Shown here one piece after another: positions 6,646 to 21,319 of a stretch of 64,000 nucleotides of DNA. How positions within the stretch are numbered: the stretch's first letter is position 1; every line of letters starts with the position of its first letter. Origin of the DNA: Streptomyces sp. NBC_00285 (lineage in GTDB: Bacteria > Actinomycetota > Actinomycetes > Streptomycetales > Streptomycetaceae); contig NZ_CP108055.1 in the NCBI RefSeq assembly GCF_036174265.1, positions 930,001-994,000 on the forward strand, read 5' to 3'. A program made the translations under genes and the position numbers. Below the pieces are notes generated by a model. It ran no database searches. It had not been told where the DNA came from and was given only the letters and a program-made list of their open reading frames with translations.

Positions 6646-6663
6646 GGGGATGATTCCTTCCCC
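6646..6663. promoter_or_regulatory. GGGGA-N8-TCCCC palindrome (site A), hydrolase operon
   Basis: The 18-bp GGGGATGATTCCTTCCCC lies about 90 bp before the ATG of the hydrolase at 6754. It has the same arms and spacing as the sites in front of three MmyB genes in this window. Putative operator for one of those regulators. Confidence 0.6.
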
Positions 6664-6753
6664 CCATCGTGAGTGGACATCATCTCTGCACCGGCGAATC
6701 ATGGTGTGCGGACCGCCGATCGGCGGATCGCGGCCGACAAAGGGACAGGCGTC

Positions 6754-7668
6754 ATGGTCGAGACTGTTTCATTCAGGAACAAAGCCGTAGAGATCGCGGG
6801 ACACCTCCACCTGCCGGACGACTTCGACGAAGATAAAAGATATCCCGCCCTTGTCGGAATTCATCCGGCCGGCGGTGTAAAGGAACAGACCATCGGCCAG
6901 TACGCGAAGCGGCTGGCTTCCGAGGGATTCGTGACCGTGGTCTACGACTCCTCCTACCAGGGAGAGAGCGGCGGCGAACCGCGCCTTCTGGAAGACCCGA
7001 CGACCAGGGTGGAGGACGCCCGTTGCGCGGCGGACTTCCTCAGCACTCTCCCGTACGTGGACACCGAGCGGATGGGCGTCTTCGGCATCTGCGCCGGTGG
7101 CGGCTACGCGATCAGCGTGGCGCAGACCGAACGCCGTTTCAAGGCGGTCGCCACCGTCAGCGCGGCTCCGATGGGCGAAGGTTCCAGGAGCTTTCTGGGG
7201 CATCTGTCTCCGGTGTCCGAGCAGATCAAGGCCCTGGAGATGGTCGGTCAGCAGCGCACAGCGGAGGCGAGGGGAGCAGAGCCCGTCTACGCCCCGTTCG
7301 TCCCGGAAACGCTGGAGGAGATCGACGACAACACGCCGGACCTCCTCCGCGAGGGATACGACTACTACCGGACTCCGCGTGGTCAGCATCCCCGTTCCAA
7401 GGGCCGCTTTCTGCTGACCAGCATGGACAGGATGTACGCCTTCTCGACGTTCCATCAAATTCCGGAACTGCTGACCCAGCCGCTGCTCCTCATCGCGGGG
7501 AGCAAGGCGGACACAAAGGTGTTCAGCGACCAGGCTTACGAGCTTTCCAAGGGCCCGAAGGAACTGTTCGTCGTCGACGGGGCGACTCACATCGCCATGT
7601 ACGACGTTCCCGAGTACATGGATCAGGCGCTCACCAAGATGGTGAAGTTCTTCGCCGTCCTTCAGTAG
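6754..7668 (+). CDS. alpha/beta hydrolase, dienelactone-hydrolase/YcjY type
   Basis: 304 residues, cytosolic. The nucleophile elbow is GICAGGG with cysteine at residue 113, typical of the DLH-like branch, where Cys replaces Ser. The distal His sits in GATHIAMYD. The oxyanion strand is GIHPAGG at about residues 35-41. The start at 6754 is chosen over the longer frame because it follows an AGGGACAGG-type ribosome binding site and matches the family N-terminus. First gene of an apparent operon with the flavodoxin, NTF2-like and DJ-1-like genes (gaps 68, 51 and 24 bp). Likely hydrolyses an ester or lactone; substrate unknown. Site A upstream suggests control by an MmyB-family protein. Confidence 0.85.
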   Translation: MVETVSFRNKAVEIAGHLHLPDDFDEDKRYPALVGIHPAGGVKEQTIGQYAKRLASEGFVTVVYDSSYQGESGGEPRLLEDPTTRVEDARCAADFLSTLPYVDTERMGVFGICAGGGYAISVAQTERRFKAVATVSAAPMGEGSRSFLGHLSPVSEQIKALEMVGQQRTAEARGAEPVYAPFVPETLEEIDDNTPDLLREGYDYYRTPRGQHPRSKGRFLLTSMDRMYAFSTFHQIPELLTQPLLLIAGSKADTKVFSDQAYELSKGPKELFVVDGATHIAMYDVPEYMDQALTKMVKFFAVLQ

Positions 7669-7736
7669 AAATCCTCCAGGGCAAACGCCCGGAGAGCCTG
7701 GCCCGCCGTAGAAATCATTCGAGGAGCACCATCACC

Positions 7737-8336
7737 ATGTCCCATCCCGGCCGCCCCACCGTCGCCATCGCCTTTCATTCGGGCTACGGCCACACGGCCG
7801 TCATCGCCGAAGCCGTGGCGCGTGGTGCGGCGGGAGCGGGCGTCGAGGTCGTCTCGATCTCCGTCGACACCATTACGGACGAGCAGTGGGCACAGCTGGA
7901 CGCCGCCGACGCGATCGTCTTCGGCGCCCCCACATACATGGGTACCGCCTCCGCGGCCTTCCACGCGTTCGCCGAGGCCAGCAGCAAGCGCTGGTTCTCC
8001 CAGGCCTGGGTGGACAAGCTCGCCGCAGGATTCACCAACTCCGGTGCCAAGAACGGCGACAAGTCGTCCACCCTGGGCTACTTCGCCACGATGGCCGCCC
8101 AGCACGGCATGCACTGGATCAGCCTGGGCCTGCAGCCAGGCTGGGACTCCACCGCGGGCAGCGAGGACGACATCAATCGGCTGGGCTTCTTCCTGGGCGC
8201 CGGCGCCCAGAGCCCGACCGACGCCGGCCCGGAGGCGGTCCACAAGTCGGACATCGCCACCGCGGAGCACCTGGGCGCCCGCGTCGCACGCCAGGCCGCG
8301 ATCTTCCGCGCCGGGCGGACCGCCCTCGCCGCCTGA
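7737..8336 (+). CDS. flavodoxin-family NAD(P)H:quinone oxidoreductase (WrbA-like)
   Basis: 199 residues with a flavodoxin fold. The FMN phosphate loop is FHSGYGHT (about residues 13-20), the second flavin loop is FGAPTYMGTAS, and a FTNSG segment precedes the loop that contacts the isoalloxazine ring. This arrangement is that of WrbA-type quinone reductases, which reduce quinones by two electrons and so avoid semiquinones. The ATG at 7737 is preceded by GAGGAG at 7721-7726. It is the second gene of the four-gene redox operon. Confidence 0.88.
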   Translation: MSHPGRPTVAIAFHSGYGHTAVIAEAVARGAAGAGVEVVSISVDTITDEQWAQLDAADAIVFGAPTYMGTASAAFHAFAEASSKRWFSQAWVDKLAAGFTNSGAKNGDKSSTLGYFATMAAQHGMHWISLGLQPGWDSTAGSEDDINRLGFFLGAGAQSPTDAGPEAVHKSDIATAEHLGARVARQAAIFRAGRTALAA

Positions 8337-8387
8337 TCCCGGAACCCTTTCCCCTCTCCATCCGCCACCCCCCGCAAGGAGTACGTC

Positions 8388-8780
8388 ATGTCCGATTCCC
8401 CGAGCCTCGCCCTCGTCCGCCGGCTCTACGAATCCGGAATGTCCCCGGAAGTGACCGCCGAGGTCATGGCCCCGGACCTCGTCTGGGACATCACCCCCGG
8501 CTTCCCGAACAGCGGTGTCTACCACGGCTGGGACGACGCGGCCAAGAACTTCTTCGGCAGGACGATGCCGAACTACGACTCCTTCGGCGCGGTGCCCGAG
8601 GAGTTCTACGCCGACGACGAAGGCCATGTCTTCGTGTTCGGCCATTACCACGCCGAGACGAAGACCGGGAACAAGGCCGACGTCCGGTTCATCCACCTGT
8701 GGACCGTCCGTGACGGCAAGGCCGTGAGCATGCGGCAGGCCGCCGACAGCCACATCCTCCAGGAAGCCCTCAAGGGCTGA
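8388..8780 (+). CDS. NTF2-like (SnoaL-type) protein
   Basis: 130 residues with the cone-shaped NTF2 fold: an N-terminal helix (LALVRRLYESGMSPE), a VWDITPGFPNSGVYHG strand/loop, then the long antiparallel sheet ending HLWTVRDGKAVSMRQAADS. Members act as small cyclases, isomerases, hydrolases or binding proteins; no catalytic residue can be assigned from sequence. AAGGAG at 8376-8381 sets the start at 8388. Third gene of the operon. Confidence 0.85.
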   Translation: MSDSPSLALVRRLYESGMSPEVTAEVMAPDLVWDITPGFPNSGVYHGWDDAAKNFFGRTMPNYDSFGAVPEEFYADDEGHVFVFGHYHAETKTGNKADVRFIHLWTVRDGKAVSMRQAADSHILQEALKG

Positions 8781-8804
8781 CACCCTCACCAGGAGACGAC
8801 AACC

Positions 8805-9503
8805 ATGGCGAAGATCCTCTTCGTGATCACCGCGTCCGACCACTGGACGCTGGCCGACGGCACCCGCCAGCCGGCCGGCTTCTGGGCCGAGGAAGCGATC
8901 GGCCCCTACCAGGTCTTCAAGGAGGCCGGATACGAGATCGCGGCGGCGACGCCGGGCGGTGTGCCGCCGACCGCGGACGCGCTCAGCCTCACCGCGGACT
9001 TCAACGGCGGCGAGGAAGGCGCCGAGCGCATGCGGACCGCCCTGCGCGAGGCCACCGAGCTGGCGCACCCGATGCGCATCGAGGACGTGAACATCGACGA
9101 CTACGTGGCCGTCTTCTACCCCGGCGGCTGGGGCCCGATGGAGGACCTGCCCGACGACGCCGCCTCCGGCAAGCTGCTCACCGAGTGGCTCGCCACCGGC
9201 AAGCCGGTCTCCCTGGTGTGCCACGGCCCCGCGGCACTGCTGGCGACGATCGGCCCGGACGGGACCTCCCCGTTCCACGGTTACCGCCTCACCGGCCTGT
9301 CGAACGCCGAGGAGAAGCTGAACGGTCTCGCCGACCGCGCGAAGTGGCTGCTCCAGGACCGCCTCGTGGGCGAACTCGGGGCGGACTACCGCGAGGCCGA
9401 CCCGTTCACCCCGCACGTCCAGGTCGACCGCACCCTCTACACCGGCCAGAACCCGGTCTCGGCCGTTGCCCTCGCCCAGGAGCTGGTCAAGGCGCTGAGC
9501 TGA
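8805..9503 (+). CDS. DJ-1/PfpI-superfamily protein (Hsp31-like, type 1 GATase fold)
   Basis: 232 residues. The nucleophile elbow VSLVCHGPAALL places Cys at 139 next to His 140. An acidic residue in FWAEE (about 29-30) matches the glutamate that polarises the cysteine in DJ-1 proteins, and the YPGGWGPMEDL loop matches the Hsp31/glyoxalase III subgroup. The family includes glutathione-independent glyoxalases and chaperones; a role in reactive aldehyde defence fits its quinone reductase and hydrolase neighbours, but this is inference. Last gene of the operon, followed by a strong hairpin. Confidence 0.85.
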   Translation: MAKILFVITASDHWTLADGTRQPAGFWAEEAIGPYQVFKEAGYEIAAATPGGVPPTADALSLTADFNGGEEGAERMRTALREATELAHPMRIEDVNIDDYVAVFYPGGWGPMEDLPDDAASGKLLTEWLATGKPVSLVCHGPAALLATIGPDGTSPFHGYRLTGLSNAEEKLNGLADRAKWLLQDRLVGELGADYREADPFTPHVQVDRTLYTGQNPVSAVALAQELVKALS

Positions 9504-9520
9504 CCACTCGGAAAGCTCCC

Positions 9521-9560
9521 ACAGGTGGCCCGTGGCGCGCTCGCGCCCCGGGCCACCTGT
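9521..9560 (+). terminator. hairpin terminator after the redox operon
   Basis: ACAGGTGGCCC at 9521-9531 pairs perfectly with GGGCCACCTGT at 9550-9560, with further G/C pairing inside the loop, 18 bp past the DJ-1-like stop. There is no U tract, as is usual in Streptomyces. Confidence 0.75.
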
Positions 9561-9615
9561 CCTGCTGCGGGCCCTACCACGATCGAGAGGATCGCGCCCA
9601 CTGGCCGATCAGCCA

Positions 9616-9633
9616 GGGGACGGATCCGTACCC
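9616..9633. promoter_or_regulatory. GGGGA-N8-TACCC palindrome (site D), MmyB gene 9670
   Basis: GGGGACGGATCCGTACCC ends 36 bp before the ATG at 9670. Its centre CGGATCCG is itself palindromic. Sites E and F occupy almost the same position, 35-36 bp, before the other two full MmyB genes, which suggests autoregulation. Confidence 0.6.
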
Positions 9634-9669
9634 CTCACAAGATGCGGCGTTTGTGCCAGGCTGAAGGTC

Positions 9670-10539
9670 ATGAACCGCAACCCGCATCTGAACGAGCTGG
9701 GTGAGTTCCTCAAGGCCCGTCGTGCTGAGCTCACCCCCTCCGAGGTCGGCCTCCGCGGCGGGCCACGGAGGCGCGTGCAGGGACTGCGCCGTGAGGAAGT
9801 GGCACTCCTCGCCGCGATCAGCACCGAGTACTACACCCGGATCGAGCAGGGCCGACTCCAGGCGTCAGCTCCCCTCCTCGACGAGATCGCCCAGGTGCTC
9901 CGTCTGAACGACGCCCAGCGCACCTATCTCTTCGATCTCGCGGCGAAGGAGCGGGTGCGCCCGACCCTGTACCGCGAGCGCCAGCAGGTGGACCCGCAGC
10001 TGCAGCGCACGCTGGACGACCTCAGCGCCTCCCCGGCCTTCGTCATCGGCCGGCGCACCGACATCCTGGGCTGGAACCGACTCGCCGCCGCCCTGTGGAC
10101 CGATTTCGGGCGCTACCCCGAGCCGGAGCGGGTGTTCGTGCGGCTGCTGTTCACCGAACCCTGGATGCGTGAGCTGTACGTCGACTGGGAGGAGGTCACC
10201 CGGCTGGCCATCGCCCAGCTGCGCATGGAGAGCGCGCGCTACCCCGACGACCAGCCTCTCACCGCACTGGTCGAGGAACTCTCCGCCCGTGACCCACAGT
10301 TCCGGCAGTGGTGGACCGAACACGACGTCGCGATGCGGGGCAATGGCGTCAAAAGGCTGCGGCACCCTGTGGTGGGCGAGCTGACGCTCGACTGGAACAC
10401 GCTCACCTGCGGTACGGATCCCGACCAGCACATCATCGTGTGGAACGCGGAACCCGGGACCCCCTCCCACGACGGGCTGCGCCTGCTCGCCTCCTGGACC
10501 GCCGACCAGAAACCGTCGGCGTCCGACGCGGCTACCTGA
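9670..10539 (+). CDS. MmyB-family transcriptional regulator (HTH plus ligand-binding domain)
   Basis: 289 residues. The N-terminal XRE-type HTH covers about residues 5-80 with the family signature GLRREEVALLAAISTEYYTRIEQGR. The C-terminal domain (about 95-280) is the MmyB-like PAS-related module, with the diagnostic GWNRLAAALWTDF, LFTEPWMRELY and LTLDWNTL segments. A structurally characterised member of the family binds a lipid-like ligand there; the ligand here is unknown. The longer frame back to 9532 is rejected because it crosses the terminator and operator. It sits between the redox operon and the quinone oxidoreductase, both preceded by the motif also found at its own promoter, so it is a strong candidate regulator of both. 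Confidence 0.92.
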   Translation: MNRNPHLNELGEFLKARRAELTPSEVGLRGGPRRRVQGLRREEVALLAAISTEYYTRIEQGRLQASAPLLDEIAQVLRLNDAQRTYLFDLAAKERVRPTLYRERQQVDPQLQRTLDDLSASPAFVIGRRTDILGWNRLAAALWTDFGRYPEPERVFVRLLFTEPWMRELYVDWEEVTRLAIAQLRMESARYPDDQPLTALVEELSARDPQFRQWWTEHDVAMRGNGVKRLRHPVVGELTLDWNTLTCGTDPDQHIIVWNAEPGTPSHDGLRLLASWTADQKPSASDAAT

Positions 10540-10595
10540 GCCTTTTCTCCCGCGCGCCCGCAAGGGCTGACCGGCGGTGCGGTGTCACACATGAG

Positions 10596-10613
10596 GGGGA
10601 TACATACATCCCC
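10596..10613. promoter_or_regulatory. GGGGA-N8-TCCCC palindrome (site C), quinone oxidoreductase
   Basis: GGGGATACATACATCCCC, with extra G and C on the flanks, lies about 106 bp before the ATG at 10720. Arms are perfect and spacing is identical to sites A and B. Confidence 0.6.
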
Positions 10614-10629
10614 CCTATAGCCGTATCCC

Positions 10630-10647
10630 GGCCAAGAAACCTTCCCC
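10630..10647. promoter_or_regulatory. degenerate second site (C2) 34 bp after site C
   Basis: GGCCA-N8-TCCCC keeps eight of ten arm bases of the consensus and is 34 bp from site C, about the 33-bp phase seen for the B2/B and E/E2 pairs. Suggests cooperative binding on one face of the helix. Confidence 0.35.
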
Positions 10648-10719
10648 TTTTCCGGGCGTACGCGAGCCGGAAAGGTCGGACACCTCAACGACCGAATGTC
10701 AGACAACGAGGTGCTTCGC

Positions 10720-11652
10720 ATGAAGGCTGTAGGTTTCACGGAATTCGGTGGGCCGGAGGTGCTTCAGGTTCTGGAGCTGCCCGCTCCCGAGGCCGGTCCG
10801 GGCGAGGTGCGCATCCGGGTGCACGCCGCGACCGTCAACGCGGTCGACGCCCTCCAGCGCAGCGGACCCGCCCGGTCTCCGGACGCCCGGCCGCCGTTCG
10901 TGCCCGGCATGGAGGCCGCCGGTGTCGTGGACCAGATCGGCGCGGGCACGGACACGGACCTCAGCGTCGGTGACCAGGTGATGGCGCTCGTGCTCGCTGA
11001 CGGTGCCCGCGGCGCCTACGCCGAGCAGATCGTCGTCCCGGCGGAGTCGGTGGTGCGCGCACCCCACGGCGTGAGCGACGCACAGGCCGCGTCGCTGCCG
11101 ATGAACGGTCTGACCGCGCGCCTGGCGCTTGACACCCTCGGCCTGGAGGCCGGGCAGTCCGTCGCCGTCACCGGAGCGGCCGGTGCGGTGGGCGGCTATG
11201 CCGTCCAACTGGCCAAGGCGGACGGGCTGCGGGTGGTGGCCGATGCCTCGGAGCAGGACGAGACCCTGGTCAAGGAACTCGGTGCCGACATCGTTCTGCG
11301 TCGCGGCGCCGAGTACCCGGACCGGGTGCGCGCGGAGGTCCCGGAGGGCGTCGACGGGCTCCTCGACGCCGCGTCGCTCGGCGCTCTCACCGCCCGGGCG
11401 GTGCGGGACGGCGGCCGGGTGGTGACACTGCGCGGCTACGACGGTCCCGGTGAACGCGGCATCGTCTACGAGCCGATCGTCGTGTTCCGCTATGCCCGCG
11501 AGCACGCCAAGCTCGACCGGCTGCGGCAGCAGGCGGAGGACGGCCGGATCACCCTTCGGGTCGCCAGGACGTTCCCGGCGGAACAGGCCGCCGAGGCACA
11601 CCGGCTCCTCGCCGCAGGCGGAGTGCGCGGCCGACTGGTCCTGACCTTCTGA
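10720..11652 (+). CDS. zinc-independent quinone oxidoreductase (MDR superfamily)
   Basis: 310 residues. It has the quinone-oxidoreductase N-terminus (MKAVGFTEFGGPEVLQVLEL), no zinc-ligand cysteines, and a nucleotide-binding motif VTGAAGAVGGYAVQLAK at about residues 150-166. The ending (EAHRLLAAGGVRGRLVLTF) is typical of NADP-dependent QOR proteins. Start: the ATG at 10720 follows GAGG at 10708-10711 with good spacing; the ATG at 10696 lacks a ribosome binding site. It probably reduces quinones or activated enones with NADPH. Sites C and C2 upstream, and the convergent SDR downstream across a long palindrome, define a monocistronic unit. Confidence 0.88.
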   Translation: MKAVGFTEFGGPEVLQVLELPAPEAGPGEVRIRVHAATVNAVDALQRSGPARSPDARPPFVPGMEAAGVVDQIGAGTDTDLSVGDQVMALVLADGARGAYAEQIVVPAESVVRAPHGVSDAQAASLPMNGLTARLALDTLGLEAGQSVAVTGAAGAVGGYAVQLAKADGLRVVADASEQDETLVKELGADIVLRRGAEYPDRVRAEVPEGVDGLLDAASLGALTARAVRDGGRVVTLRGYDGPGERGIVYEPIVVFRYAREHAKLDRLRQQAEDGRITLRVARTFPAEQAAEAHRLLAAGGVRGRLVLTF

Positions 11653-11733: not shown

Positions 11734-12696
11734 CTACGCGGCGAACGCGTTCACACCCGTCAGCTCCGCAGACAGCTCCCACAGGCGCGCCGCCTGCCCG
11801 GGGTCGGTCGCCCAGTCCTTCACACCGCGCATCTCGCCGTCGGCCGGAGCGGGCTCGGCCACGTCGCAGTCCTCGAGGTAGAGACCGCCCAGGCCCTCCA
11901 GCTGGGGGGAATTCGCGGCCCACACCTGCGTTGCCGCGCCCTGCTGAGGGGTCTTGAAGAAGTCCGGGTCGCGCAGGTTGCCGTCCTCGTCGAACCAGCC
12001 GAACTCCACCCTCTCCTCTTCGGGCACGTGCCGCAGGAGCGGTGTGATGATGACGCCGGGATGCACGGCGAAGGCGCGGACGCCGAAGTCCTTGGCGAGC
12101 CTGTCCAGGTGCACCGCGAAGAGCGCGTTCGCGGTCTTCGCCTGGCCGTACGCCTGCCACTTGTCGTAGCCCCGCTCCCACTGGACGTCGTCCCAGCGGA
12201 TGCCGGACATGTGATGGCCGCCGGAGGAGACGGAGACGACCCGTGCGCCGTCGGGTTCGAGCGCCGGCCACAGACGGTTGACGAGGGCGAAGTGACCGAG
12301 ATGGTTGGTCGCGAACTGCGCTTCCCAGCCTGGCCCGACCCGGGTTTCGGGGCAGGCCATGATCCCGGCGCTGTCGATGACGATGTCGACACTCCTGCTT
12401 GAGTCGAGGAACCGCTCCGCGAATCCGCGGACACTCTCCAGGTCGCCGAGATCCAGCTCGTCCACCTCGACGCCGAGAACCCCGTCGAGCGCGCCCCGGG
12501 CGTCCGCGGGCCTACGCGCGGGGACGACGACGTGGGCGCCGGCCCGGGTGAGCGCACGAGTGGTCTCCAGGCCGATGCCCGAGTAGCCGCCGGTGACGAT
12601 CGCGAGCTTGCCGCTCAGGTCGATGCCCTGGAGGACGTCGGCGGCGGTGCTCCTGGCGTCGAACCCGGAGCCGATCTTGTGCTGTGCGGTGGTCAT
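11734..12696 (-). CDS. SDR-family oxidoreductase (retinol-dehydrogenase-like)
   Basis: 320 residues, longer than a classical SDR because of the C-terminal extension seen in RDH/WWOX-like enzymes. It has TGGYSGIG for the cofactor, DSAGIMA in place of NNAG, SSGGH around the catalytic serine and YGQAK as the catalytic Tyr/Lys pair. An ATG at 12696, downstream of AGGAG, is preferred to a TTG two codons earlier. It is the last of four minus-strand genes (transporter, zwf, transporter, SDR) with short gaps, so it may be read from the promoter near 16.8 kb. Substrate unknown; probably a hydrophobic alcohol or ketone. Confidence 0.88.
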   Translation of the reverse strand: MTTAQHKIGSGFDARSTAADVLQGIDLSGKLAIVTGGYSGIGLETTRALTRAGAHVVVPARRPADARGALDGVLGVEVDELDLGDLESVRGFAERFLDSSRSVDIVIDSAGIMACPETRVGPGWEAQFATNHLGHFALVNRLWPALEPDGARVVSVSSGGHHMSGIRWDDVQWERGYDKWQAYGQAKTANALFAVHLDRLAKDFGVRAFAVHPGVIITPLLRHVPEEERVEFGWFDEDGNLRDPDFFKTPQQGAATQVWAANSPQLEGLGGLYLEDCDVAEPAPADGEMRGVKDWATDPGQAARLWELSAELTGVNAFAA

Positions 12697-12753: not shown

Positions 12754-13992
12754 TCAACCGTTCCTCTCGGAGAGGAGCGGTCCGCGGCGGCCGAGGGTCC
12801 ACACGAAGAGTGCGAGACAGGCGAGGCCGGCGCCGGTCAGCGAGACGGCGGTCCAGTCGGCGGCGGACCACAGGACGGAGGCTGCCGCGGAGCCGGCCGC
12901 GCCGCCGATGAAGTTGCAGGTGACGAAGGCCGTGTTGAGGCGGCTTCGGGCCTGGGGCGCGAGCGCGAACAGCCGTGTCTGGTTGAGGATGTTCACGCCC
13001 TGTACGGCGATGTCGAGCAGCACGACGGCCACGACGATCCCCACGACGGAACGCTCGGCGAGGGCCGCGACGACGAACGAGACCACGACCGCCGCCCACC
13101 CCCACCCGGTCGCCGGCATGGACCTGCCCCGGTCATGGAGTCGCCCGGCACGCCGGGCGGCCAGCGCCCCGGCCAGCCCGAGGAGGCCGAACAGACCGAT
13201 CACGGAGACCGAGTAGGAGAACGGCTCCGCGCCGAGCAGGAAGGTCAGCCCGGTCCAGAACAGGGTGAAGACGCCGAAGGCGGTGGCACCGAGGAACAGC
13301 GTCCAGCGCACCGCGCGCTCCTGCCGGATCACCTGCCACACCGAGAGCAACAGCCGTGGGTACGGCAGGTGGACCTTCGGGGCGACCGGAGGGATCGTGC
13401 GGCTGAGGAGCAACGCGAAGGCGAGCGAGACCGTGGCGGCGACGAAGTAGATGGCGCGCCATCCGGCCGCGTCCGCGAGGAGTCCGCTGATGGTGCGGGA
13501 GGTGAGGATGCCGATGAGCATCCCGGAGACCACCGTCCCCACCACGCGCCCGCGGTTGGTGTCGTCGCTGAGGTCACCGGCGAGCGGGGTGAGCAACTGG
13601 CCGCTGACGGTCGTGAACCCGAGGAGGGTGGTCGCCACCAGGAGCGCGCCCAGGGAAGGAGCTATGGCGCAGGCGATGAGCGCGAGGGCCGCGCAGAGCA
13701 TCATTCCGGGGATGAACCGGCGCCGGTCGAGGACATCGCCGAGCGGGACCAGCAGCAGTGCTCCGGTCGCGTAGCCGATCTGGGTGGCTGTCACGAGCCA
13801 GCCTGCCGACGCGGTCGAGGCGTGCAGGTCACTGCCGATGAAGCCGAGCAGCGGCTGTGCCCAGTAGAGGTTGGCGACAGCGGTGCCACCGGCGACTGCG
13901 AACAGCAGAGTCAGGCCGCGGCTCATCCTGTTCCCGTCCGCTGTGGCGGGGACGCTCGCGGTGGGCGGCGTGGGGGTGTCCGGAGTGGCCAT
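12754..13992 (-). CDS. MFS transporter, 12-TM drug:H+ antiporter type
   Basis: 412 residues, about 12 predicted membrane helices. The first helix begins near LTLLFAVAGGTAVANLYWAQPLL. The motif-A loop between TM2 and TM3 is LGDVLDRRRFIPG, and the second half has FSYSVSVIGLFGLLGLAGALAARRAGRLHDR. It resembles exporters of the YnfM/AraJ-like DHA1 group. The frame stays open to 14421 but that part only mirrors zwf on the same strand in another frame, so the ATG at 13992 (sequence MATPDTPTPPT) is used. Third gene of the minus-strand run; likely export of a small toxic compound. Confidence 0.88.
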   Translation of the reverse strand: MATPDTPTPPTASVPATADGNRMSRGLTLLFAVAGGTAVANLYWAQPLLGFIGSDLHASTASAGWLVTATQIGYATGALLLVPLGDVLDRRRFIPGMMLCAALALIACAIAPSLGALLVATTLLGFTTVSGQLLTPLAGDLSDDTNRGRVVGTVVSGMLIGILTSRTISGLLADAAGWRAIYFVAATVSLAFALLLSRTIPPVAPKVHLPYPRLLLSVWQVIRQERAVRWTLFLGATAFGVFTLFWTGLTFLLGAEPFSYSVSVIGLFGLLGLAGALAARRAGRLHDRGRSMPATGWGWAAVVVSFVVAALAERSVVGIVVAVVLLDIAVQGVNILNQTRLFALAPQARSRLNTAFVTCNFIGGAAGSAAASVLWSAADWTAVSLTGAGLACLALFVWTLGRRGPLLSERNG

Positions 13993-14104: not shown

Positions 14105-15499
14105 CTACGCCTGTTCCAGTGGCAGCCAGCGGTCGTCGGTGGCCAGGCGGTCGGCATCCGCCGGCCCCCAGCCGCCGACGTCGTAGCGGTGGGGCGCACC
14201 GGGCAGGTCGAGGACGGGCCCGACGATGCGCCAGAGCTCCTCGACCATGTCCATGGTGGTGAAGCGGCGCGGGTCGCCGGTGATCGCGTCGGCCAGGACA
14301 TGGGTGTAGGCCACGGAGTCGTTTCCGGTGAGGTGGGCGAAGTCGACCGTCGCGGCGACCTGGTCGACCTCGCCGGTCTCTCCCTCGTGCTGGGCGAGCA
14401 GATCGAAGGTGACGCCCGCACGAGGGCTGATGCGAAAACGCAGCCCGTTCGCAGGGGCCTGTTGAGCGCTCGCGGTGTGGTGGAAGCCCTCGACGGGACG
14501 GTTCAGTTCGACGACGATCTCGATGGCGGTGGCCGCCATCGCCTTGCCCGCCCGGATGGTGAAGGGGATCCCGGCCCAGCGGTCGAGGTTCACCCAGGTG
14601 CGCAGGGCGCAGTAGGTTTCGGTGGTCGACCCCGCTTTGACACCCTGGACGTCGAGGTAACCGTCGTACTGACCGCGTACGAAGTCCTCGGAGCGCACGG
14701 TACGGACGGCGCGCAGGGCTCGGATGCGTTCGTCGAGGACGTCGACGGCGGAGCCCGTACGCGGTGCTTCCATCACGAAGTAGGCGAGCATCTGCAGCAG
14801 GTGGTTCTGGACCACGTCGCGCAGGCATCCGGTCACGTCGTAGAAGCCGCCGCGGTCGGCCACGTCGAAGTCCTCGGCCATGGTGATCTGGACGCTGCGC
14901 ACGAAGCGGCGGTCCAGGACGGCGTTGACGCTGGTGTTGGCGAAGCGGAAGGTCAGCAGGTCCTCGATGACGTCCTTGGCGAGGAAGTGGTCGACGCGGC
15001 GCAGTCGTTCCTCGGGGAAGTACCGGGTCAGTTCGCTCTGCAGGGCACGGGCAGAGTGCAGGTCGTGGCCGAAGGGCTTCTCGACGACGAGCCGGGCGTT
15101 GTCGGCCAGGCCTGCCTCGGCGAGCCGCTGGGCGATGACGGGGTAGGTGGACGGCGGCAAGGCGACGCAGTGCGTCAGGAAGCCGTGCGGACGGACCTGG
15201 TCGGCGAGGTCGGTGAAGCTCGCGGGGTCGTCGTAGTCGACGCGGGCATAGCACAGCAGTGCGGCGAACCTGTCGAACACCCCCTCGTCCAGGGAGACTT
15301 CCGCGGCCCTCAGCACATCGCGAGCATGTCGACGCAGCCGTTCGTCGTCCCAGTCGCTGCGGCCGACGCCGATGACGGGCACGTCGAGGAAGCCCTGGCG
15401 GGTCAGGTCGTACAGGGCGGGCAGCAGCATCTTCTTGGCGAGGTCGCCGGTGATGCCGAAGAGGACGAGGGCATCCGCGCGGGGGGCGGGGGTGGTCAT
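14105..15499 (-). CDS. zwf: glucose-6-phosphate dehydrogenase
   Basis: 464 residues. NADP-binding motif FGITGDLAKKMLLPALYDL at about residues 14-32, substrate-binding segment RVDHFLAKDVIEDLLTFRFAN (consensus RIDHYLGKE; here Val, Phe and Ala replace the usual residues and Asp replaces Glu), VVEKPFGHD, and the C-terminal WRIVGPVLD..WGPADADRL ending. It makes NADPH and 6-phosphogluconolactone. The divergence in the catalytic stretch and its position between two MFS genes, away from tal/opcA/devB, suggest a second, accessory copy that supplies NADPH to the reductases of this island. Its ATG follows GGAGCGACC. Confidence 0.93.
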   Translation of the reverse strand: MTTPAPRADALVLFGITGDLAKKMLLPALYDLTRQGFLDVPVIGVGRSDWDDERLRRHARDVLRAAEVSLDEGVFDRFAALLCYARVDYDDPASFTDLADQVRPHGFLTHCVALPPSTYPVIAQRLAEAGLADNARLVVEKPFGHDLHSARALQSELTRYFPEERLRRVDHFLAKDVIEDLLTFRFANTSVNAVLDRRFVRSVQITMAEDFDVADRGGFYDVTGCLRDVVQNHLLQMLAYFVMEAPRTGSAVDVLDERIRALRAVRTVRSEDFVRGQYDGYLDVQGVKAGSTTETYCALRTWVNLDRWAGIPFTIRAGKAMAATAIEIVVELNRPVEGFHHTASAQQAPANGLRFRISPRAGVTFDLLAQHEGETGEVDQVAATVDFAHLTGNDSVAYTHVLADAITGDPRRFTTMDMVEELWRIVGPVLDLPGAPHRYDVGGWGPADADRLATDDRWLPLEQA

Positions 15500-15539: not shown

Positions 15540-16805
15540 TCACTTGACGCCGCGTACGCCTGCGAGCGAGGCGATGGCGAGGGCCGAGCAGATGGCGCCG
15601 ACGACGAAGAGGGGCGGATAGTTGTCGTGGGAGCCGACGATGAGCGATCCGTACAGCGGGATGAGCATCTGCGGGACGACGAGGGCCAGGTTGTAGACGC
15701 CCAGTTCCTGTGCCGCGTGCTCGGGATCGGGCAGGACGCGGCTGACCATGGGCAGATCGACGGAGAGGTAGCCGCCCTGGGCGACGCCGATGAGCACCAT
15801 GCCCGTCAGGAAGATCCCGAACGAGTTGTCGACGCACATGACCAGGAGTCCGCCCGCCGACGCGAGCGCGGCCAGGCGGAGCCAGGGCTTGAGGCGGCCG
15901 GTACGGTCGTCGAGCATGCCGAAGAGCAGCGAGGCCACCAACGATCCGGCGCCCAGCAGCAGGGTGGACTGGAAGACCCGGCCGGCGGTGCTGTCGCCGC
16001 CGTATCCCACGCGGTCCGAGACGATGTACGTCTGGTAGGTGAGGATGATGAAGACCCCGGAGAACATCAGGAACCGGCTGGCGAACGCCCAGGCGTAGGC
16101 GGGGTAGCGGCGCGGGTTCACATAGAAGCTGGAGAAGAACTCCCGCGGGCCGAAGGGCGGGAGGGTGCTCTTGTCGGCGGGTGCGTCGGGGGCCACGGCG
16201 ACGAGCAGTGCCGCACCGGCCGCGCCGATCAGACCAGGGACCAGCAGCATCAGCGCGGGACTGAAGTCCAACAGGCTGACCAACAGGGTCGCGGCGACCA
16301 TCCCGATGGGCATGGCCGGGCCCATCAGCCCGCTGACCCGGCCCCGCACCCCTGGTTCGATGCGCTCGGTCAGCACGGCCTGCGACGCCATCAGCGTGCC
16401 CGACCAGCCGGCCTGTGCCAGCACCCAGCCCACGACCAGCAGCCACACCGCGCCGCCGAGGCCGATGCAGGCAAGGCCGGTGAGCCCGACGAGCGGGCCG
16501 ATCACCAACCAGGTCCGACGCTTCCCGAGGCGAAGGGTGGTGCGGTCGGAGAGGGCGCCCAGGAGCGGGGAGGCGATCGCAGCGGCGAAGGCGCCGACGG
16601 ACAGCACGGTGCTCAGCGTGGAGACCCGCTGGCCCTCACCGACCACGTCACGCACGCGCAGGGCCATGCTGATCGTGGGCGGGGACATCACCGCGATGTA
16701 GGCACCGTAGTAGGCAGCGACCAGGGCGACGGGCAGCAACAGGCCGGCCCGTGCCGTGGGGGTCGGAGCGGCGACCTGGCTGGACGTGGGGGTGGCTCTG
16801 GTCAT
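15540..16805 (-). CDS. MFS transporter, 12 TM
   Basis: 421 residues. TM1 starts at GLLLPVALVAAYYGAYIAVMSPP; the motif-A loop is GALSDRTTLRLGKRRTWL, and its repeat in the second half is GMLDDRTGRLKPW, giving the usual 6+6 layout. The DRTTLRLGKRR loop resembles that of glycoside/cation-symporter-like MFS proteins (GPH/sugar group), so uptake of a sugar cannot be excluded, which would suit its zwf neighbour 40 bp downstream. It is the first gene of the minus-strand run and is divergent from the efflux pump at 17066; sites B and B2 lie between the two. Confidence 0.85.
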   Translation of the reverse strand: MTRATPTSSQVAAPTPTARAGLLLPVALVAAYYGAYIAVMSPPTISMALRVRDVVGEGQRVSTLSTVLSVGAFAAAIASPLLGALSDRTTLRLGKRRTWLVIGPLVGLTGLACIGLGGAVWLLVVGWVLAQAGWSGTLMASQAVLTERIEPGVRGRVSGLMGPAMPIGMVAATLLVSLLDFSPALMLLVPGLIGAAGAALLVAVAPDAPADKSTLPPFGPREFFSSFYVNPRRYPAYAWAFASRFLMFSGVFIILTYQTYIVSDRVGYGGDSTAGRVFQSTLLLGAGSLVASLLFGMLDDRTGRLKPWLRLAALASAGGLLVMCVDNSFGIFLTGMVLIGVAQGGYLSVDLPMVSRVLPDPEHAAQELGVYNLALVVPQMLIPLYGSLIVGSHDNYPPLFVVGAICSALAIASLAGVRGVK

Positions 16806-16913
16806 CCGTGACTCGCTTCCTTCGGCCTAGGTCCGAGACGCATCACGGCAGCAAGTGCATCTCCGCAGTTCTGAGTTGGACAGTAAGTTTCCCGGTGTCG
16901 AGGAATAAGTGAA

Positions 16914-16931
16914 GGGGCTGTTTTCTTCCCC
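16914..16931. promoter_or_regulatory. GGGGC-N8-TCCCC palindrome (site B2) between divergent MFS genes
   Basis: GGGGCTGTTTTCTTCCCC, one arm mismatch, starts 33 bp before site B and 109 bp from the start of the minus-strand transporter. Likely serves that side of the divergent promoter. Confidence 0.55.
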
Positions 16932-16946
16932 GGCATGAATTACCCA

Positions 16947-16964
16947 GGGGATGAATTCCTCCCC
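16947..16964. promoter_or_regulatory. GGGGA-N8-TCCCC palindrome (site B), efflux pump promoter
   Basis: GGGGATGAATTCCTCCCC with perfect arms, about 100 bp before the GTG at 17066. Its flanks (CCA before, CCAT after) match those of site A, so the two promoters share more than the arms. Confidence 0.6.
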
Positions 16965-17065
16965 CCATACACCGATGCGCACGTGTCGGCCCCGCGGATA
17001 TGGTCAGCGGCGCGGCCCGGGCGGAAGCAACAGGTCCGATTTCCTGTATCGAAGGGAAGGGAATT

Positions 17066-19093
17066 GTGGTCCAGGAGGTAGGCGAACAGGTAGTGGAGCC
17101 GCAGTCGGCGGCGGGAAACCGGCACAGGGTGCGGGTGTCCATCGGCGCGTTGCTGCTCGGCATGCTCATCTCGGCGCTGGACCAGACCATCGTGTCCACC
17201 GCATTGCCGACGATCGTCAGTGACCTCGGCGGAATGAGCCACCTGTCGTGGGTCGTCACCGCCTACCTGCTCGCCTCGACCGCCGCGACCCCGCTGTGGG
17301 GCAAGCTGGGCGACCAGTACGGGCGCAAGAAGCTCTTCCAGGCCGCGATCGTGATCTTCCTGATCGGATCGGCGCTGTGCGGTCTGGCGCAGGACATGCC
17401 GGAGCTGATCGCGTTCCGCGCGCTTCAAGGGCTCGGCGGCGGTGGCCTGATGGTCCTGTCGATGGCGATCGTCGGCGACATCGTGCCGCCCCGGGACCGG
17501 GGCCGCTACCAGGGCCTGTTCGGTGCCGTCTTCGGCGCGACCAGCGTGCTGGGGCCGTTGCTCGGCGGGCTGTTCGTGGACCGTCTGAGCTGGCGCTGGG
17601 TCTTCTACGTCAACCTGCCCGTCGGTGCCGTCGCTCTCGTGGTGATCGCCGCCGCGCTGCGGATCCCGGTCCGGTCGCAGAAGCACCGGATCGACTACCT
17701 GGGGACGCTTCTGATCGCGTCCGTCGCCACCTGCCTGATCCTGGTGACCTCGCTCGGCGGCCGGACCTGGGGATGGACATCCGTCCCGTTGATCGGGACG
17801 GCGGCCCTGGGTGCCGTACTGCTCGTGTGGTTCCTGGCCGTCGAGCGCAGGGCTGCCGAACCGGTGCTGCCGTTGAAGCTGTTCCGCATCCGTACGTTCG
17901 CGCTGTCCTCAGCAATCAGCTTCGTGATCGGCTTCGCGATGTTCGGTGCGATGACCTACCTGCCGACGTTCCTCCAGGTCGTGCAGGGAGTGTCGCCCAC
18001 CATGTCGGGTGTGCACATGCTGCCGATGGTGCTCGGCCTGCTGCTGACGTCCACGCTGTCCGGCCAGGTCGTCTCCCGTACCGGGCGCTGGAAGATCTTC
18101 CCGGTGCTCGGCACCGCCGTCACCGCCGCGGGACTGTTGCTTCTGCACCGGCTCACGGAGTCCTCCGGCAACCTCGAAATGAGCCTGTACTTCTTCGTCT
18201 TCGGCTTCGGGCTCGGCCTGGTCATGCAGGTGCTCGTCCTGATCGTGCAGAACGCGGTGTCGTACGAGGATCTGGGCGTCGCCACCTCGGGGGTCACGTT
18301 CTTCCGGTCGATCGGCTCCGCGTTCGGCGTCGCCGTCTTCGGCACGGTCTTCACCAGCCGGCTCGACGACAAGCTGCACGACGTGTTCACCGGGTCGGCC
18401 CGGTCCCGGTCGGCCGCCGCGCTCGAGGCCGACCCACGTGCCATGGACCGACTCCCGCCCGAGCTGCGCCCGTCCGCGCTGCACGCGTACGCCACATCGA
18501 TCACCGACGTGTTCCTCTACGCTGCCCCGGTCGTCCTGCTCGCCTTCGCGCTGACCTGGCTCCTCAAGGAGGACAGGCTGCGCGGCTCGGTCACCGCGCC
18601 CGACATGGCGCAGACCCTCAGCGTCCACCCCGTGCACCGCTCCTCGCGTGAGGAGGCGCAGCGGGCCCTGTCCCTCCTCGGGTCACGAAACGGACGGCGC
18701 GGCATCTACGAGAAGATCACCGCCACGGCCGGATACGACCTCCTGCCCGCCTCCAGCTGGCTACTGCTGCGGGCCCTACGACCGGACAGGTCTCTGCCGC
18801 CGGCACGGCTCGCCGAGTACAGCCAGGTGCCGCTGCCGGTGATCCAGGCCGCCCTGCAGCAGATCGAGCAGCGGCAGTTGGCCACGATCGAGGGTACGGA
18901 CCTGACCCTCACCGACGCGGGCCGCGACGCCGCGGCCCGGCTTTCGGCGGCCCGCCGGGACGCTCTCGCCGAGCTGCTCGGCGACTGGTGGGGACCCGAC
19001 CGGCCGACGGACCTGGTCGAACTGGTCGACGAGTTGTCGTCGCAGCTCTCCGGCTCCGACGGGGAACGACCGCGCCTCCCGGCGCCCGGGTAA
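17066..19093 (+). CDS. DHA2-type (14-TM) MFS efflux pump with C-terminal winged-helix domain
   Basis: 675 residues. An EmrB/QacA-type transporter covers about residues 25-525: LDQTIVSTALPTIVSDLGG, motif A (GKLGDQYGRKKLFQ) and the antiporter motif C region (GAVFGATSVLGPLLGGLF). After the last helix comes a cytosolic tail of about 140 residues. It contains a MarR/winged-helix-like module: helix and recognition-helix region LPPARLAEYSQVPLPVIQAAL, then EQRQLATIEGTDLTLTDAGR as the wing. The GTG at 17066 follows GAAGGGAAGGG; an upstream in-frame start at 17000 is less likely. Exports drugs with proton exchange; the tail may sense substrate or DNA. Such fused tails occur in some actinobacterial pumps, but their role is unproven. 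Confidence 0.9.
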   Translation: MVQEVGEQVVEPQSAAGNRHRVRVSIGALLLGMLISALDQTIVSTALPTIVSDLGGMSHLSWVVTAYLLASTAATPLWGKLGDQYGRKKLFQAAIVIFLIGSALCGLAQDMPELIAFRALQGLGGGGLMVLSMAIVGDIVPPRDRGRYQGLFGAVFGATSVLGPLLGGLFVDRLSWRWVFYVNLPVGAVALVVIAAALRIPVRSQKHRIDYLGTLLIASVATCLILVTSLGGRTWGWTSVPLIGTAALGAVLLVWFLAVERRAAEPVLPLKLFRIRTFALSSAISFVIGFAMFGAMTYLPTFLQVVQGVSPTMSGVHMLPMVLGLLLTSTLSGQVVSRTGRWKIFPVLGTAVTAAGLLLLHRLTESSGNLEMSLYFFVFGFGLGLVMQVLVLIVQNAVSYEDLGVATSGVTFFRSIGSAFGVAVFGTVFTSRLDDKLHDVFTGSARSRSAAALEADPRAMDRLPPELRPSALHAYATSITDVFLYAAPVVLLAFALTWLLKEDRLRGSVTAPDMAQTLSVHPVHRSSREEAQRALSLLGSRNGRRGIYEKITATAGYDLLPASSWLLLRALRPDRSLPPARLAEYSQVPLPVIQAALQQIEQRQLATIEGTDLTLTDAGRDAAARLSAARRDALAELLGDWWGPDRPTDLVELVDELSSQLSGSDGERPRLPAPG

Positions 19094-19268
19094 CACGCTC
19101 GTCGCACCTGATCCAGGGGCATGCGCCACTCCGGATGGGGAGGGGCAGCGTCTCTCCCCGCGCCGGGCCGGGGCCCTCCACGGACGGTCGCCCGGCAGCC
19201 CCATTGCGGCTATGAGGCCGTCCCGACGGCCCTGTGGCTGCGCGGTGGCCCACCTGACCCCTGAGGAC

Positions 19269-20138
19269 TCAGGCCGCCGCATCCTGTGCGGGCCGGTCCG
19301 AGTCCGCGGTCCATGACGCCAGGAACAGAAGCCCGTCGTGGGACGGGGCCCCGGGATCGGCGGTCGCGACGACCAGTTTCTGTGTGGGGTCGGCTGTGCA
19401 GGTCAGGGTGTCCCAGTCGAGGGTGAGGTCGCCGACGATCGGGTGGCGCAGCCTCTTGGTACCCATCCGCAGGCCCTTCATCTGTCGGCCCGCCCACCAC
19501 TGCCGGAAGTCGGCGTCGGTGACCGACAACTCGCCGACGAGTGCGGCCAGCTTCGGGTCGCCGGGGTACCGGGCCGCCTCCAGGCGCAGATGGGTCACGC
19601 AGATGCGGGCATTCGTCCTCCAGTCGAGGCAGAGCTCGCGGAAGGCGGGGTCGGTGAACATGAGCCGCGCGTAGTTGCGCCTGTTCGCGGGGAGCTTGTC
19701 GAAGTCGGTGAGCAGAGCGGCTGCAAGAGGATTCCAGGCGAGGATGTCCAGGTATCGGCCGAGGACGAGTGCGGGGGTCGTGGACAGTTCGTCCAGGATG
19801 CGTCTGAGCTGCGGGTGGACCTTCTGCGCCGGCCGGCGACGCGGTTCGCACGTGCCCCTTGCCGCCAGCTCGAACAGGTGGTCACGCTGGGCGTCGTCGA
19901 GGTGCAGGACGCGGGCGAGCGTGGCGAGCACCGTCCTCGGCACGGGGGTACGCCCCTGTTCCAGCCGCTCGTAGGCGCGGGTGCTGATCCCCACGAGGTG
20001 AGCGACCTCCTCACGGCGCAGCCCGGGCACTCGCCGGGGCGCCCCGGACTCGGGCAGACCGACGGTCCGCGGGCTGAGCTGGGCCCGGCACACCTTGAGG
20101 AATTCTCCCAGTTCAGGCAAATGTGCTTCGGTGTACAT
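19269..20138 (-). CDS. MmyB-family transcriptional regulator
   Basis: 289 residues, same architecture as the gene at 9670. HTH segment PGLRREEVAHLVGISTRAYERLEQGRTPVPRTVL (about 40-73); ligand domain with LAWNPLAAALLTDF, LMFTDPAFRELCLDW, and the ending LTLDWDTLTC..SHDGLLFLASW. AYERLEQGR replaces YYTRLEQGR, so its DNA contacts may differ from its two paralogues. It is in tandem with the next gene (20237-21115) across a 98-bp gap that contains site F, and convergent with the efflux pump. Confidence 0.92.
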   Translation of the reverse strand: MYTEAHLPELGEFLKVCRAQLSPRTVGLPESGAPRRVPGLRREEVAHLVGISTRAYERLEQGRTPVPRTVLATLARVLHLDDAQRDHLFELAARGTCEPRRRPAQKVHPQLRRILDELSTTPALVLGRYLDILAWNPLAAALLTDFDKLPANRRNYARLMFTDPAFRELCLDWRTNARICVTHLRLEAARYPGDPKLAALVGELSVTDADFRQWWAGRQMKGLRMGTKRLRHPIVGDLTLDWDTLTCTADPTQKLVVATADPGAPSHDGLLFLASWTADSDRPAQDAAA

Positions 20139-20174
20139 ACCAGCGAGTGTCGCAGTGTCCAGTCGAAATGTGAG

Positions 20175-20192
20175 GGGGAGAGTTTTGTCCCA
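20175..20192. promoter_or_regulatory. GGGGA-N8-TCCCA palindrome (site F), MmyB gene 20138
   Basis: GGGGAGAGTTTTGTCCCA lies 36 bp before the ATG at 20138 (minus strand), the same place as site D relative to its gene. One arm mismatch. Confidence 0.55.
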
Positions 20193-20236
20193 GGTCTGTC
20201 GCCTGTCGAATCACCGCGGCAGACAAGGCCGTTGCA

Positions 20237-21115
20237 TCAGCCGGTCTCACCGGCCTGAGCGGCCGTGAGCCCGCCGGGCCGACCGTTGGCCCGCGAGGAG
20301 AGGGCGCTCAGACCGTCGTACGACGGCGTGCCTGGCTCCGCCGTCCAGACGACGAGTTCCTGATCGGGGTCGCCACCGCAGATGAGGGTGTCCCAGTCCA
20401 GGACGAGTTCGCCCACGACGGGATGGTGGAACCTCTTGACGCCCGCCCTGCGCGACGGTGCGTGACGGCTTCCCCACCATCGACCGAAGTCACTGTCCTG
20501 CACGGAGAGTTCCCCGACCAAGCCGATCAGCTGCGGATCCTCGGGATGTTTGGCGGCCTCCATGCGCAGATGGGACACGCAGTCCCGGGCGACGGCCCGC
20601 CAGTCCGCGTAGAGCGTCCGCATGGAGGGATCGGTGAAGAGGATGCGGACGCAGTTCCGCCTGCCTTCCGGCACCTTCGCGAAATCGGTGACCAGGGCGG
20701 CAGCGAGCGGATTCCAGGCCAGGATGTCCATACGGCGACCGATCACCACACCGGGACTCACGGTGAGATCGTCGAGCAGGCGGAGCAGCTGCGGGTGCGC
20801 CTTCTGTGCGGCTGGTCGGCGGTGTCGTGCCGGTTGCCGGCCGGCCAGTTCGAACAGGTGGTCACGCTGGCGATCCGACAGGCACAGGACGTGGGCGAGA
20901 GCGGCCAGCACCGACGCGGACGGCTGGATGCGGCCCTGCTCCAGCCGTGTGTAGTAGTCGCCACTGATGGCGGCGAGCAGAGCGACCTCCTCTCTGCGCA
21001 GACCGGGCACACGCCGACCACCGGTGTCGGGCAGACCGACGGTGCGCGGGGTCAGCTCGGCCCTCCGCGCCTTGAGGATTTCTCCCAGCTCACTCAGATG
21101 CGCGTCGCCGGCCAT
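20237..21115 (-). CDS. MmyB-family transcriptional regulator
   Basis: 292 residues. HTH with VPGLRREEVALLAAISGDYYTRLEQGRIQPSASVL; ligand domain with ILAWNPLAAALVTDF, ILFTDPSMRTLYADW and LVLDWDTLICGGDPDQELVVW. The longer open frame to 21328 is rejected: the ATG at 21115 aligns with the family start (HLSELGEILKARRAELTPRTVGL), and sites E and E2 lie inside the would-be extension. Closest in its recognition helix to the gene at 9670. Upstream in the plus direction begins the catabolic run at 21610, so this gene may also control that side. Confidence 0.92.
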   Translation of the reverse strand: MAGDAHLSELGEILKARRAELTPRTVGLPDTGGRRVPGLRREEVALLAAISGDYYTRLEQGRIQPSASVLAALAHVLCLSDRQRDHLFELAGRQPARHRRPAAQKAHPQLLRLLDDLTVSPGVVIGRRMDILAWNPLAAALVTDFAKVPEGRRNCVRILFTDPSMRTLYADWRAVARDCVSHLRMEAAKHPEDPQLIGLVGELSVQDSDFGRWWGSRHAPSRRAGVKRFHHPVVGELVLDWDTLICGGDPDQELVVWTAEPGTPSYDGLSALSSRANGRPGGLTAAQAGETG

Positions 21116-21150
21116 GACTCCAGTGTGGCATCGCTCGGTCATGGGAAGGG

Positions 21151-21168
21151 GGGTAAGGATTTCTCCCC
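21151..21168. promoter_or_regulatory. GGGGA-N8-TACCC palindrome (site E), MmyB gene 21115
   Basis: Read on the minus strand: GGGGAGAAATCCTTACCC, 35 bp before the ATG at 21115. Same right arm (TACCC) as site D. Confidence 0.6.
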
Positions 21169-21183
21169 TGGATACGGGATTCC

Positions 21184-21201
21184 CTGGATGGAATTCTCCC
21201 C
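21184..21201. promoter_or_regulatory. GGGGA-N8-TCCAG half-conserved site (E2), 33 bp from site E
   Basis: Read on the minus strand: perfect left arm and a weaker right arm. The start-to-start distance to E is 33 bp, as for B2/B. Confidence 0.4.
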
Positions 21202-21301
21202 TTTGCGGGTTCCCGTGAAAGTGGCAGGGTCTGGGGTGTGTTCGGTGACCGGAACCGGTCTGCGGATCGCGCACACCCGGATGAGCGGGAAGGCCGATCT
21301 C

Positions 21302-21319
21302 GGGAAAGAATGATTTCCC
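21302..21319. promoter_or_regulatory. GGGAA-N8-TTCCC palindrome (site G)
   Basis: Part of the 20-bp CGGGAAA-N6-TTTCCCG inverted repeat at 21301-21320. Same geometry as the other sites with one symmetric base change (GGGAA for GGGGA). About 290 bp before the gene at 21610; possibly the operator of the catabolic run or of a different paralogue. Confidence 0.45.

Follow-up and report, generated by a model that had tools for sequence, protein, structure and literature searches.

We studied a window of 64,000 nt from the 10.3 Mb genome of Streptomyces sp. NBC_00285 (C1:930001-994000). A sequence-only reading had proposed that a GGGGA-N8-TCCCC palindrome recurs there before three MmyB-family regulator genes and their redox and efflux neighbours. 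Our analysis showed that the palindromic motif is real and looks functional. We assign it to a regulon that is new, within a family of regulators already known. It is probable that the MmyB/MltR-family proteins bind the palindrome as dimers, activating their own genes and operons for detoxification and export.

The operator and its probable regulators

The three regulator genes of the window are as follows.
9670..10539, + strand: mm1, MmyB/MltR-family regulator (PF17765 E 5e-59, HTH_31)
19269..20138, - strand: mm2, MmyB/MltR-family regulator (PF17765 E 1e-58, HTH_31)
20237..21115, - strand: mm3, MmyB/MltR-family regulator (PF17765 E 5e-59, HTH_31)

All three proteins are full-length, with PF17765 (MLTR_LBD) above its curated cut-off and an N-terminal XRE-type helix-turn-helix (HTH; HTH_31 above cut-off). 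Identity to mm3 is 58% for mm1, 59% for mm2 and 61% for a distant paralogue, mm4 (C1:576901); the home genome holds 24 PF17765 matches in total. As had been proposed, the palindromes stand at a constant position, ending 35-37 bp before the start codons of mm1, mm2 and mm3 (9670, 20138 and 21115).

We assessed this position across the regulator clade. In 53 of 62 clade genes, a site differing at no more than one position was present at -57 to -68 of a start-independent anchor codon. After removal of near-duplicates, 40 of 48 members carried it (shuffle mean 0.36), some 36 bp ahead of the start codon. The site was found in 5 of 12 genes of a borderline group and in 3 of 71 genes outside the clade (3/58 and 0/13); the clade thresholds (280 and 340 bits) were chosen after the score list was seen. 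These results give good support to a local, probably autoregulated regulon.

To define the spelling, we used 40 regions (774 kb) around mm3 relatives in a genus set of 121 genomes, taken from the listed clade places with weaker places left out. GGGA-N8-TCCC matched 52 times, compared with 7-25 times at 16 other spacings; in intergenic DNA it matched 38 times, compared with 3-8 at 11 other spacings. GGGG-N10-CCCC, rejected as a signal, gave 35 matches against 13-42 at other spacings and showed no spacing peak, indicating that the outer G is not key. The operator refined from 53 sites reads C-N-GGGA-GRAAWYYC-TCCC-CC, a palindrome of 16-20 bp. N8 had been described as not conserved; over these 53 sites it has a consensus of about GRAAWYYC and is thus conserved, as a weak palindrome.

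We scored 1.136 Mb of clade loci, about four fifths of it coding and with two contigs included twice (L074/L110 and L091/L119), against the operator matrix. At a score of at least 12 there were 69 regulator-proximal, 63 other intergenic and 3 coding matches (64, 60 and 3 as distinct 60-bp contexts), while 100 permuted matrices gave a mean of 7.9 intergenic matches. Gene starts and intergenic assignments came from a simple purpose-made gene caller.

Genome-wide counts were also compared. The exact GGGGA-N8-TCCCC motif occurred 13 times in the home genome against 19 for the reversed control, so the enrichment looked for was absent. The ten exact sites outside the window were rejected, their refined-matrix scores running from -2.8 to 10.4; only the three window sites exceeded 11. 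The refined pattern GGGANDDWWHHNTCCC had five matches against none for the reversed control, four of them at regulon promoters (mm4, the hydrolase genes, the MFS pair and mm2). The fifth, C1:698113, was rejected as a regulon member because it is a terminator-like hairpin between convergent genes. Of the 121 genus genomes we examined 80, comprising 35 with the clade (best E <=3.4e-83) and 45 of the 86 without it; the refined pattern matched 100 times in the former and 67 times in the latter (Mann-Whitney p 0.0015), with reversed controls of 20 and 31. The difference is real but modest, over a background of 1-2 matches per genome, and genome-wide counting was discarded as a strong test. The enrichment predicted near MmyB genes of related genomes was clear at the clade genes and only modest in genome totals.

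Within the window, eight sites had been listed originally. Three are exact (6646, 10596 and 16947), four have one mismatch each (9616, 16914, 20175 and 21151), and the one at 21302 (GGGAAAGAATGATTTCCC) was rejected because its spacing is wrong and it is absent from the matrix matches scoring >=6. Two second operators had been missed, at 10629-10648 (before the oxidoreductase gene qor) and 21183-21202 (before the genes for a carboxymuconolactone-decarboxylase-family protein, CMD, and an alcohol dehydrogenase, ADH). Dinucleotide shuffling gave a mean of 0.19 exact matches, and none of 100 shuffles reached three; with one mismatch allowed, the window held 13 matches against 6.7 expected. The case from the single window is only suggestive, and the comparison with relatives decides. 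The operators are listed below, with 20-mer matrix scores.
6647..6662, no strand: operator core GGGATGATTCCTTCCC, before the hydrolase-flavodoxin-SnoaL-DJ-1 genes (17.8; also at orthologues in L068, L108 and L109)
9617..9632, + strand: mm1 operator GGGACGGATCCGTACC (16.8; also at orthologues)
10597..10612, no strand: qor operator O1 GGGATACATACATCCC (11.1; also at orthologues in L068, L108 and L120)
10631..10646, + strand (20-mer 10629-10648): second qor operator O2, 34 bp away from O1 and with a weak left arm (7.1)
16915..16930, - strand: operator O2 on the MFS C side, 33 bp from O1 (9.6)
16948..16963, no strand: operator O1 GGGATGAATTCCTCCC between divergent MFS genes (21.2; kept in L116 and L120)
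20176..20191, - strand: mm2 operator GGGACAAAACTCTCCC (23.9)
21152..21167, - strand: mm3 operator GGGAGAAATCCTTACC (20.5)
21185..21200, + strand (20-mer 21183-21202): second operator O2 TGGATGGAATTCTCCC facing CMD/ADH, 33 bp from O1 (9.4; also in L068, L109, L116 and L120)

Two weak intergenic matches, 19141-19160 (8.2) and 41561-41580 (9.0), were rejected as operators, and a coding match at 2924 (12.6) was regarded as chance. Some 55 bp separate the site at 41561-41580 from the gene at 41636 that follows it.

Promoter geometry and probable direction of control

We aligned 36 non-redundant regulator promoters on the operator. The alignment revealed CCTCAC at +1 to +6 and TGCnAnACTGG at +22 to +32, with only weak conservation between the two blocks at +7 to +21 (information no higher than 0.37). 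The second block contains an extended -10 box, TGC-nAnACT. The first base of its hexamer is +25, 24 bp past the operator, and the -35 is weak (CTCAC versus TTGAC). With the first -10 base set to -12, the operator centre falls near -44.5. The predicted -10 hexamers of the window are given below.
9657..9662, + strand: mm1 -10 hexamer CAGGCT, 24 nt past the operator and 7 nt before the ATG (36-promoter alignment)
20146..20151, - strand: mm2 -10 hexamer GACACT (36-promoter alignment)
21122..21127, - strand: mm3 -10 hexamer CACACT (36-promoter alignment)
21225..21230, + strand: CMD/ADH -10 hexamer CAGGGT, 24 nt past O2 (by eye)

The hexamer lies 7, 7 and 6 nt from the start codon in mm1, mm2 and mm3, and regulator mRNAs are therefore predicted to be leaderless or nearly so. 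A leaderless transcript would explain the constant distance between operator and ATG. At target genes, a -10 box was found at the identical offset in 17 of 84 operator matches and one base closer in 5; over offsets 0-17 and 25-49 the mean was 0.63. The class II layout, a fixed distance from operator to -10 with a poor -35, was thus seen at the 36 regulator promoters and, at the exact offset, in 17 of the 84 target matches.

Operators also occur in pairs. Of 47 pairs, 31 were spaced by 31-34 bp and 7 by 16-17 bp; 40 permuted matrices gave a mean of 0.40 pairs at 31-34 bp and at most 4. The window holds three pairs, at 10595/10629 (qor), 16913/16946 (MFS pair) and 21150/21183 (mm3/CMD). The operator-to--10 geometry, the extended -10 box, the paired operators and the predicted leaderless transcripts are new here.

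The fixed geometry with a poor -35 favours direct activation and positive autoregulation. In the proposed mechanism, mm1-3 and their close relatives elsewhere would occupy C-N-GGGA-GRAAWYYC-TCCC-CC as dimers. At their own and some target promoters, where the operator directly precedes a poor -35 and an extended -10 follows at a distance of 24 bp, they would act as class II activators. An inducer held in the PAS-like domain would cause the regulator to switch on its own gene and neighbouring operons, which are predicted to serve export and the reduction of quinones, carbonyls and electrophiles. At several operons a second dimer may be loaded cooperatively through an additional operator, as a rule the weaker one, which stands closer to the target gene by 31-34 bp, or three helical turns. 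Phage lambda offers a parallel: its cI protein places an XRE-type HTH just upstream of the -35 of P-RM and activates its own gene; cI serves a phage switch and lacks a small-molecule ligand domain, whereas mm1-3 have a ligand domain.

Several results weigh against activation by these regulators through this site. The site is missing from 8 of the 48 clade members. Thirteen one-mismatch matches were reached by 4 of 100 shuffles, and the one-mismatch sites are therefore unconvincing from the window alone. One permuted matrix gave as many as 51 intergenic matches, because some permutations resemble the motif, and the majority of the 69 regulator-proximal sites had also trained the matrix. At genome level the separation is only modest, with 4 of the 35 clade genomes lacking any match. 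Among target matches, 67 of 84 have no -10 at the exact offset (score 4), including those of the window's hydrolase, qor and MFS genes. Related promoters and at least one gene of MmyB type (L097, two rows) are counted among the 84, so that they are not 84 independent events. In genes unseen during motif definition, the site was found in 4 of 5 clade, 1 of 4 borderline and 1 of 35 other genes. This test is weak, since 3 of its 5 positives among the 9 clade-range genes are 86-97% like earlier upstream regions: L194, L196, L201 and L222, seen earlier, were removed, near-duplicates L195, L197 and L223 were kept in, the independent positives are L198 and L203 only, and L199 is an independent miss.

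The alternative that survives best, to which we give a minor share of belief, is that the same regulators and operator work as ligand-released repressors, as MhqR, QsrR and NemR do. An operator near -44.5 combined with a weak -35 and an extended -10 is typical of activator-dependent promoters, and this is the type found at the regulator genes. At the hydrolase promoter, inspection by eye placed the operator upstream of a full promoter-like pair, TGGACA (6674-6679) and AATCAT (6697-6702), the first box 11 bp downstream. The sequence gives no certain direction of control, and MsrR, an XRE-family protein of C. glutamicum, acts as a repressor on itself as well as on a divergent MFS gene (excerpts of PMC7532634).

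All sites could in principle serve a single outside regulator, with the MmyB genes merely among its targets. We regard this as improbable: the site accompanies the regulator clade even where the gene is located elsewhere, as with mm4, and related clades lack it, some having a different dyad at about the same place. That the palindromes are terminators, hairpins or gene-duplication leftovers is very improbable, for although one of the five genome-wide refined-pattern matches is the hairpin at C1:698113 and promoters of neighbouring paralogues may share ancestry, the sites have an AT-rich centre, promoter placement, fixed distances to the -10 and ATG, columns conserved beside the weakly conserved +7 to +21, and only 3 coding matches against 132 others.

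Cluster genes and their counterparts in other loci

The regulon had been placed at 6646..21319, which is too short, as the cluster continues to 27845. Its genes are listed below.
6754..7668, + strand: dienelactone-hydrolase-type alpha/beta hydrolase (PF01738 E 9e-11; scan from 6673)
7737..8336, + strand: flavodoxin/FMN-reductase-like protein, putatively a quinone reductase (PF12724, PF03358)
8388..8780, + strand: SnoaL/NTF2-like protein (PF12680)
8805..9503, + strand: DJ-1/PfpI family protein (PF01965)
10720..11652, + strand: qor-like zinc-type oxidoreductase (PF08240, PF13602; scan from 10696)
11734..12696, - strand: short-chain dehydrogenase (PF00106)
12754..13992, - strand: MFS transporter B (PF07690)
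14105..15499, - strand: glucose-6-phosphate dehydrogenase-like protein, zwf (gene call; name from the earlier reading and the N-terminus)
15540..16805, - strand: MFS transporter C (PF07690)
17066..19093, + strand: MFS exporter, TRI12-like, labelled DHA2 by us (PF07690, PF06609; scan from 17000)
21610..21942, + strand: CMD (PF02627)
22132..23148, + strand: zinc alcohol dehydrogenase (PF00107, PF08240)
23171..23677, + strand: SnoaL-like protein (PF12680)
23674..24045, + strand: DUF2255 protein (PF10012)
24113..25699, + strand: Na+/H+ exchanger, NhaP (PF00999)
25757..26716, + strand: amidohydrolase (PF04909)
26859..27845, + strand: aldo/keto reductase (PF00248; synteny)

The redox, efflux and carbonyl make-up proposed earlier agrees with the Pfam assignments and with synteny that recurs together with the operators. 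Quinone and carbonyl reduction, DJ-1, hydrolase and exporter genes point to a response to electrophiles or xenobiotics. Recognisable versions of the cluster were found in nine other loci (L068/L069, L108, L109, L115, L116, L120, L122, L125 and L193). Their gene content varies, and most of their operators occupy corresponding places; in L125, no operator scoring >=7 precedes its mm1. The stretch from CMD through ADH, SnoaL, DUF2255, NhaP and amidohydrolase to the aldo/keto reductase (21610-27845) is also present in cluster versions elsewhere. The other intergenic sites recur across species before hydrolase, flavodoxin, SnoaL, qor, MFS exporter, zinc ADH, CMD and aldo/keto reductase genes, which make up the probable regulon. 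A contribution to NADPH supply, suggested earlier, is weakly supported: among the cluster loci (covered over 14-31 kb, or by two neighbouring pieces of 20 kb), zwf and MFS C occur in the window and L116 only, and zwf is absent at the corresponding place in L108 and L120.

Three further observations concern these loci. In the window, about 380 nt (21230-21600) separate the predicted CMD promoter from CMD. The interval from the operators to CMD in L068 contains a gene for a hydrolase (40% to the DLH hydrolase), so the window may have lost a gene. Strong operators (17-23), partly tandem, precede genes foreign to the window cluster in L084 near 687-866 and L081 near 1317 (MTELDMSELAF... and MVGGAVVA...), and these genes are perhaps further regulon members. 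The L193 version and its operators are carried by a linear record of 1.7 Mb from Streptomyces sp. NBC_01340 (NZ_CP108366.1), which is given as a plasmid and classed as mobilizable.

Known systems and other MmyB clades

MhqR is a MarR-family repressor. Its quinone-response regulon in Staphylococcus aureus is a subject of PMC6798810 and PMC12893000. This regulon resembles the present one in placing quinone and electrophile detoxification under a one-component regulator; mm1-3 combine HTH_31 with MLTR_LBD, are predicted activators and fall outside the MarR family of MhqR-type regulons.

Closer relatives are described in excerpts of PMC3406030, which cover the family, its structure, the 16 MmyB-type paralogues of S. 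coelicolor and the frequent divergent pairing of regulator and putative target. MmyB of the S. coelicolor methylenomycin cluster has the domain architecture of mm1-3, has proposed pseudo-palindromic sites and switches on its own cluster (PMC3406030). It serves a biosynthetic cluster with furan signals, whereas the cluster here is one of detoxification and export; the comparison covers domain architecture and the kind of site. SCO4944-like MmyB regulators adjoin a mycothiol-dependent formaldehyde dehydrogenase gene, again often with regulator and putative target divergent; the same excerpts report no operator for them, whereas one is predicted here. The sequence-only reading had held that no operator of this form was described for the family. 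Our search of open-licence PMC full text found neither such an operator nor a regulon of this make-up; pseudo-palindromic "B-boxes" had, however, already been proposed for MmyB (PMC3406030, citing a 2009 paper).

MltR (Caur_2278, PDB 3pxp) was a profile match and the best structural match of mm3, a likeness of the protein only. A profile of 36 relatives matched 3pxp (E 7e-13, query 53-249, the end of the HTH plus the ligand domain), and a PDB search from the single sequence gave nothing at 0.01. The AlphaFold model of mm3, the one regulator modelled (pLDDT 91), had 3pxp as its best Foldseek match (E 2e-11, TM 0.50, root-mean-square deviation 10.3 angstrom, 19% identity) and so shares its fold; the modest superposition is probably due to domain orientation. 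Binding of a small hydrophobic ligand is a putative trait of these regulators.

Outside the clade we found a second palindrome, GGnWC-N5-GWnCC, often flanked by CCWGG. By exact match it accompanies only a minority of genes, 9 of 58 and 2 of 13, where shuffling gave 0.8 and 0.2, and all but one of the 11 lie at -53 to -70; in unseen genes it occurred in 3 of 35 (0.10 by shuffle). With one mismatch it was found in 26 of 58, not far above the 13.5 by shuffle. The -10 peak lies at offset 23 (22 promoters, most with <=1 mismatch). The recognition helix reads A/S-I-S-T in 54 sequences with the GGGA operator versus G-V-S-V in 55 others, and the loop after the helix is one residue shorter in the GGGA set. 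These HTH differences set two clades against each other and may be due to ancestry alone; the palindrome and HTH contrast are a lead rather than a result. An exact second-palindrome match (CCAGGTACTGCCGGTGCCTGG) lies at 160-180 of the window, between the left-end MmyB gene (domain C1:929314-929823, - strand) and a divergent SDR gene (214-993). In Arthrobacter-type genomes (L156, L157, L165, L184 and L186), TAGGAC(TG)nC-AGTCCTA-like palindromes, one more spelling of the operator, precede MmyB genes at -62 to -64.

It is conceivable, though we lean slightly against it, that actinobacterial MmyB regulators share one positional rule. An autoregulatory palindrome would lie about 23-24 bp upstream of the -10 box of an often leaderless regulator mRNA. 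Its spelling would be set by clade, GGGA-N8-TCCC here and CCWGG-nWC-N5-GWn-CCWGG-like elsewhere, and the one-residue shorter loop after the recognition helix would go with a one-bp wider operator. If this is true, genome sequences would show which operons are targeted by a great many MmyB regulators that are still uncharacterised.

The defined operator, the promoter geometry and the list of target operons make the numerous MmyB-type family of Streptomyces directly testable, and the operator and its promoters give reporter promoters for ligand screens. The cluster points to a conserved response of these bacteria to xenobiotics or to their own metabolites.

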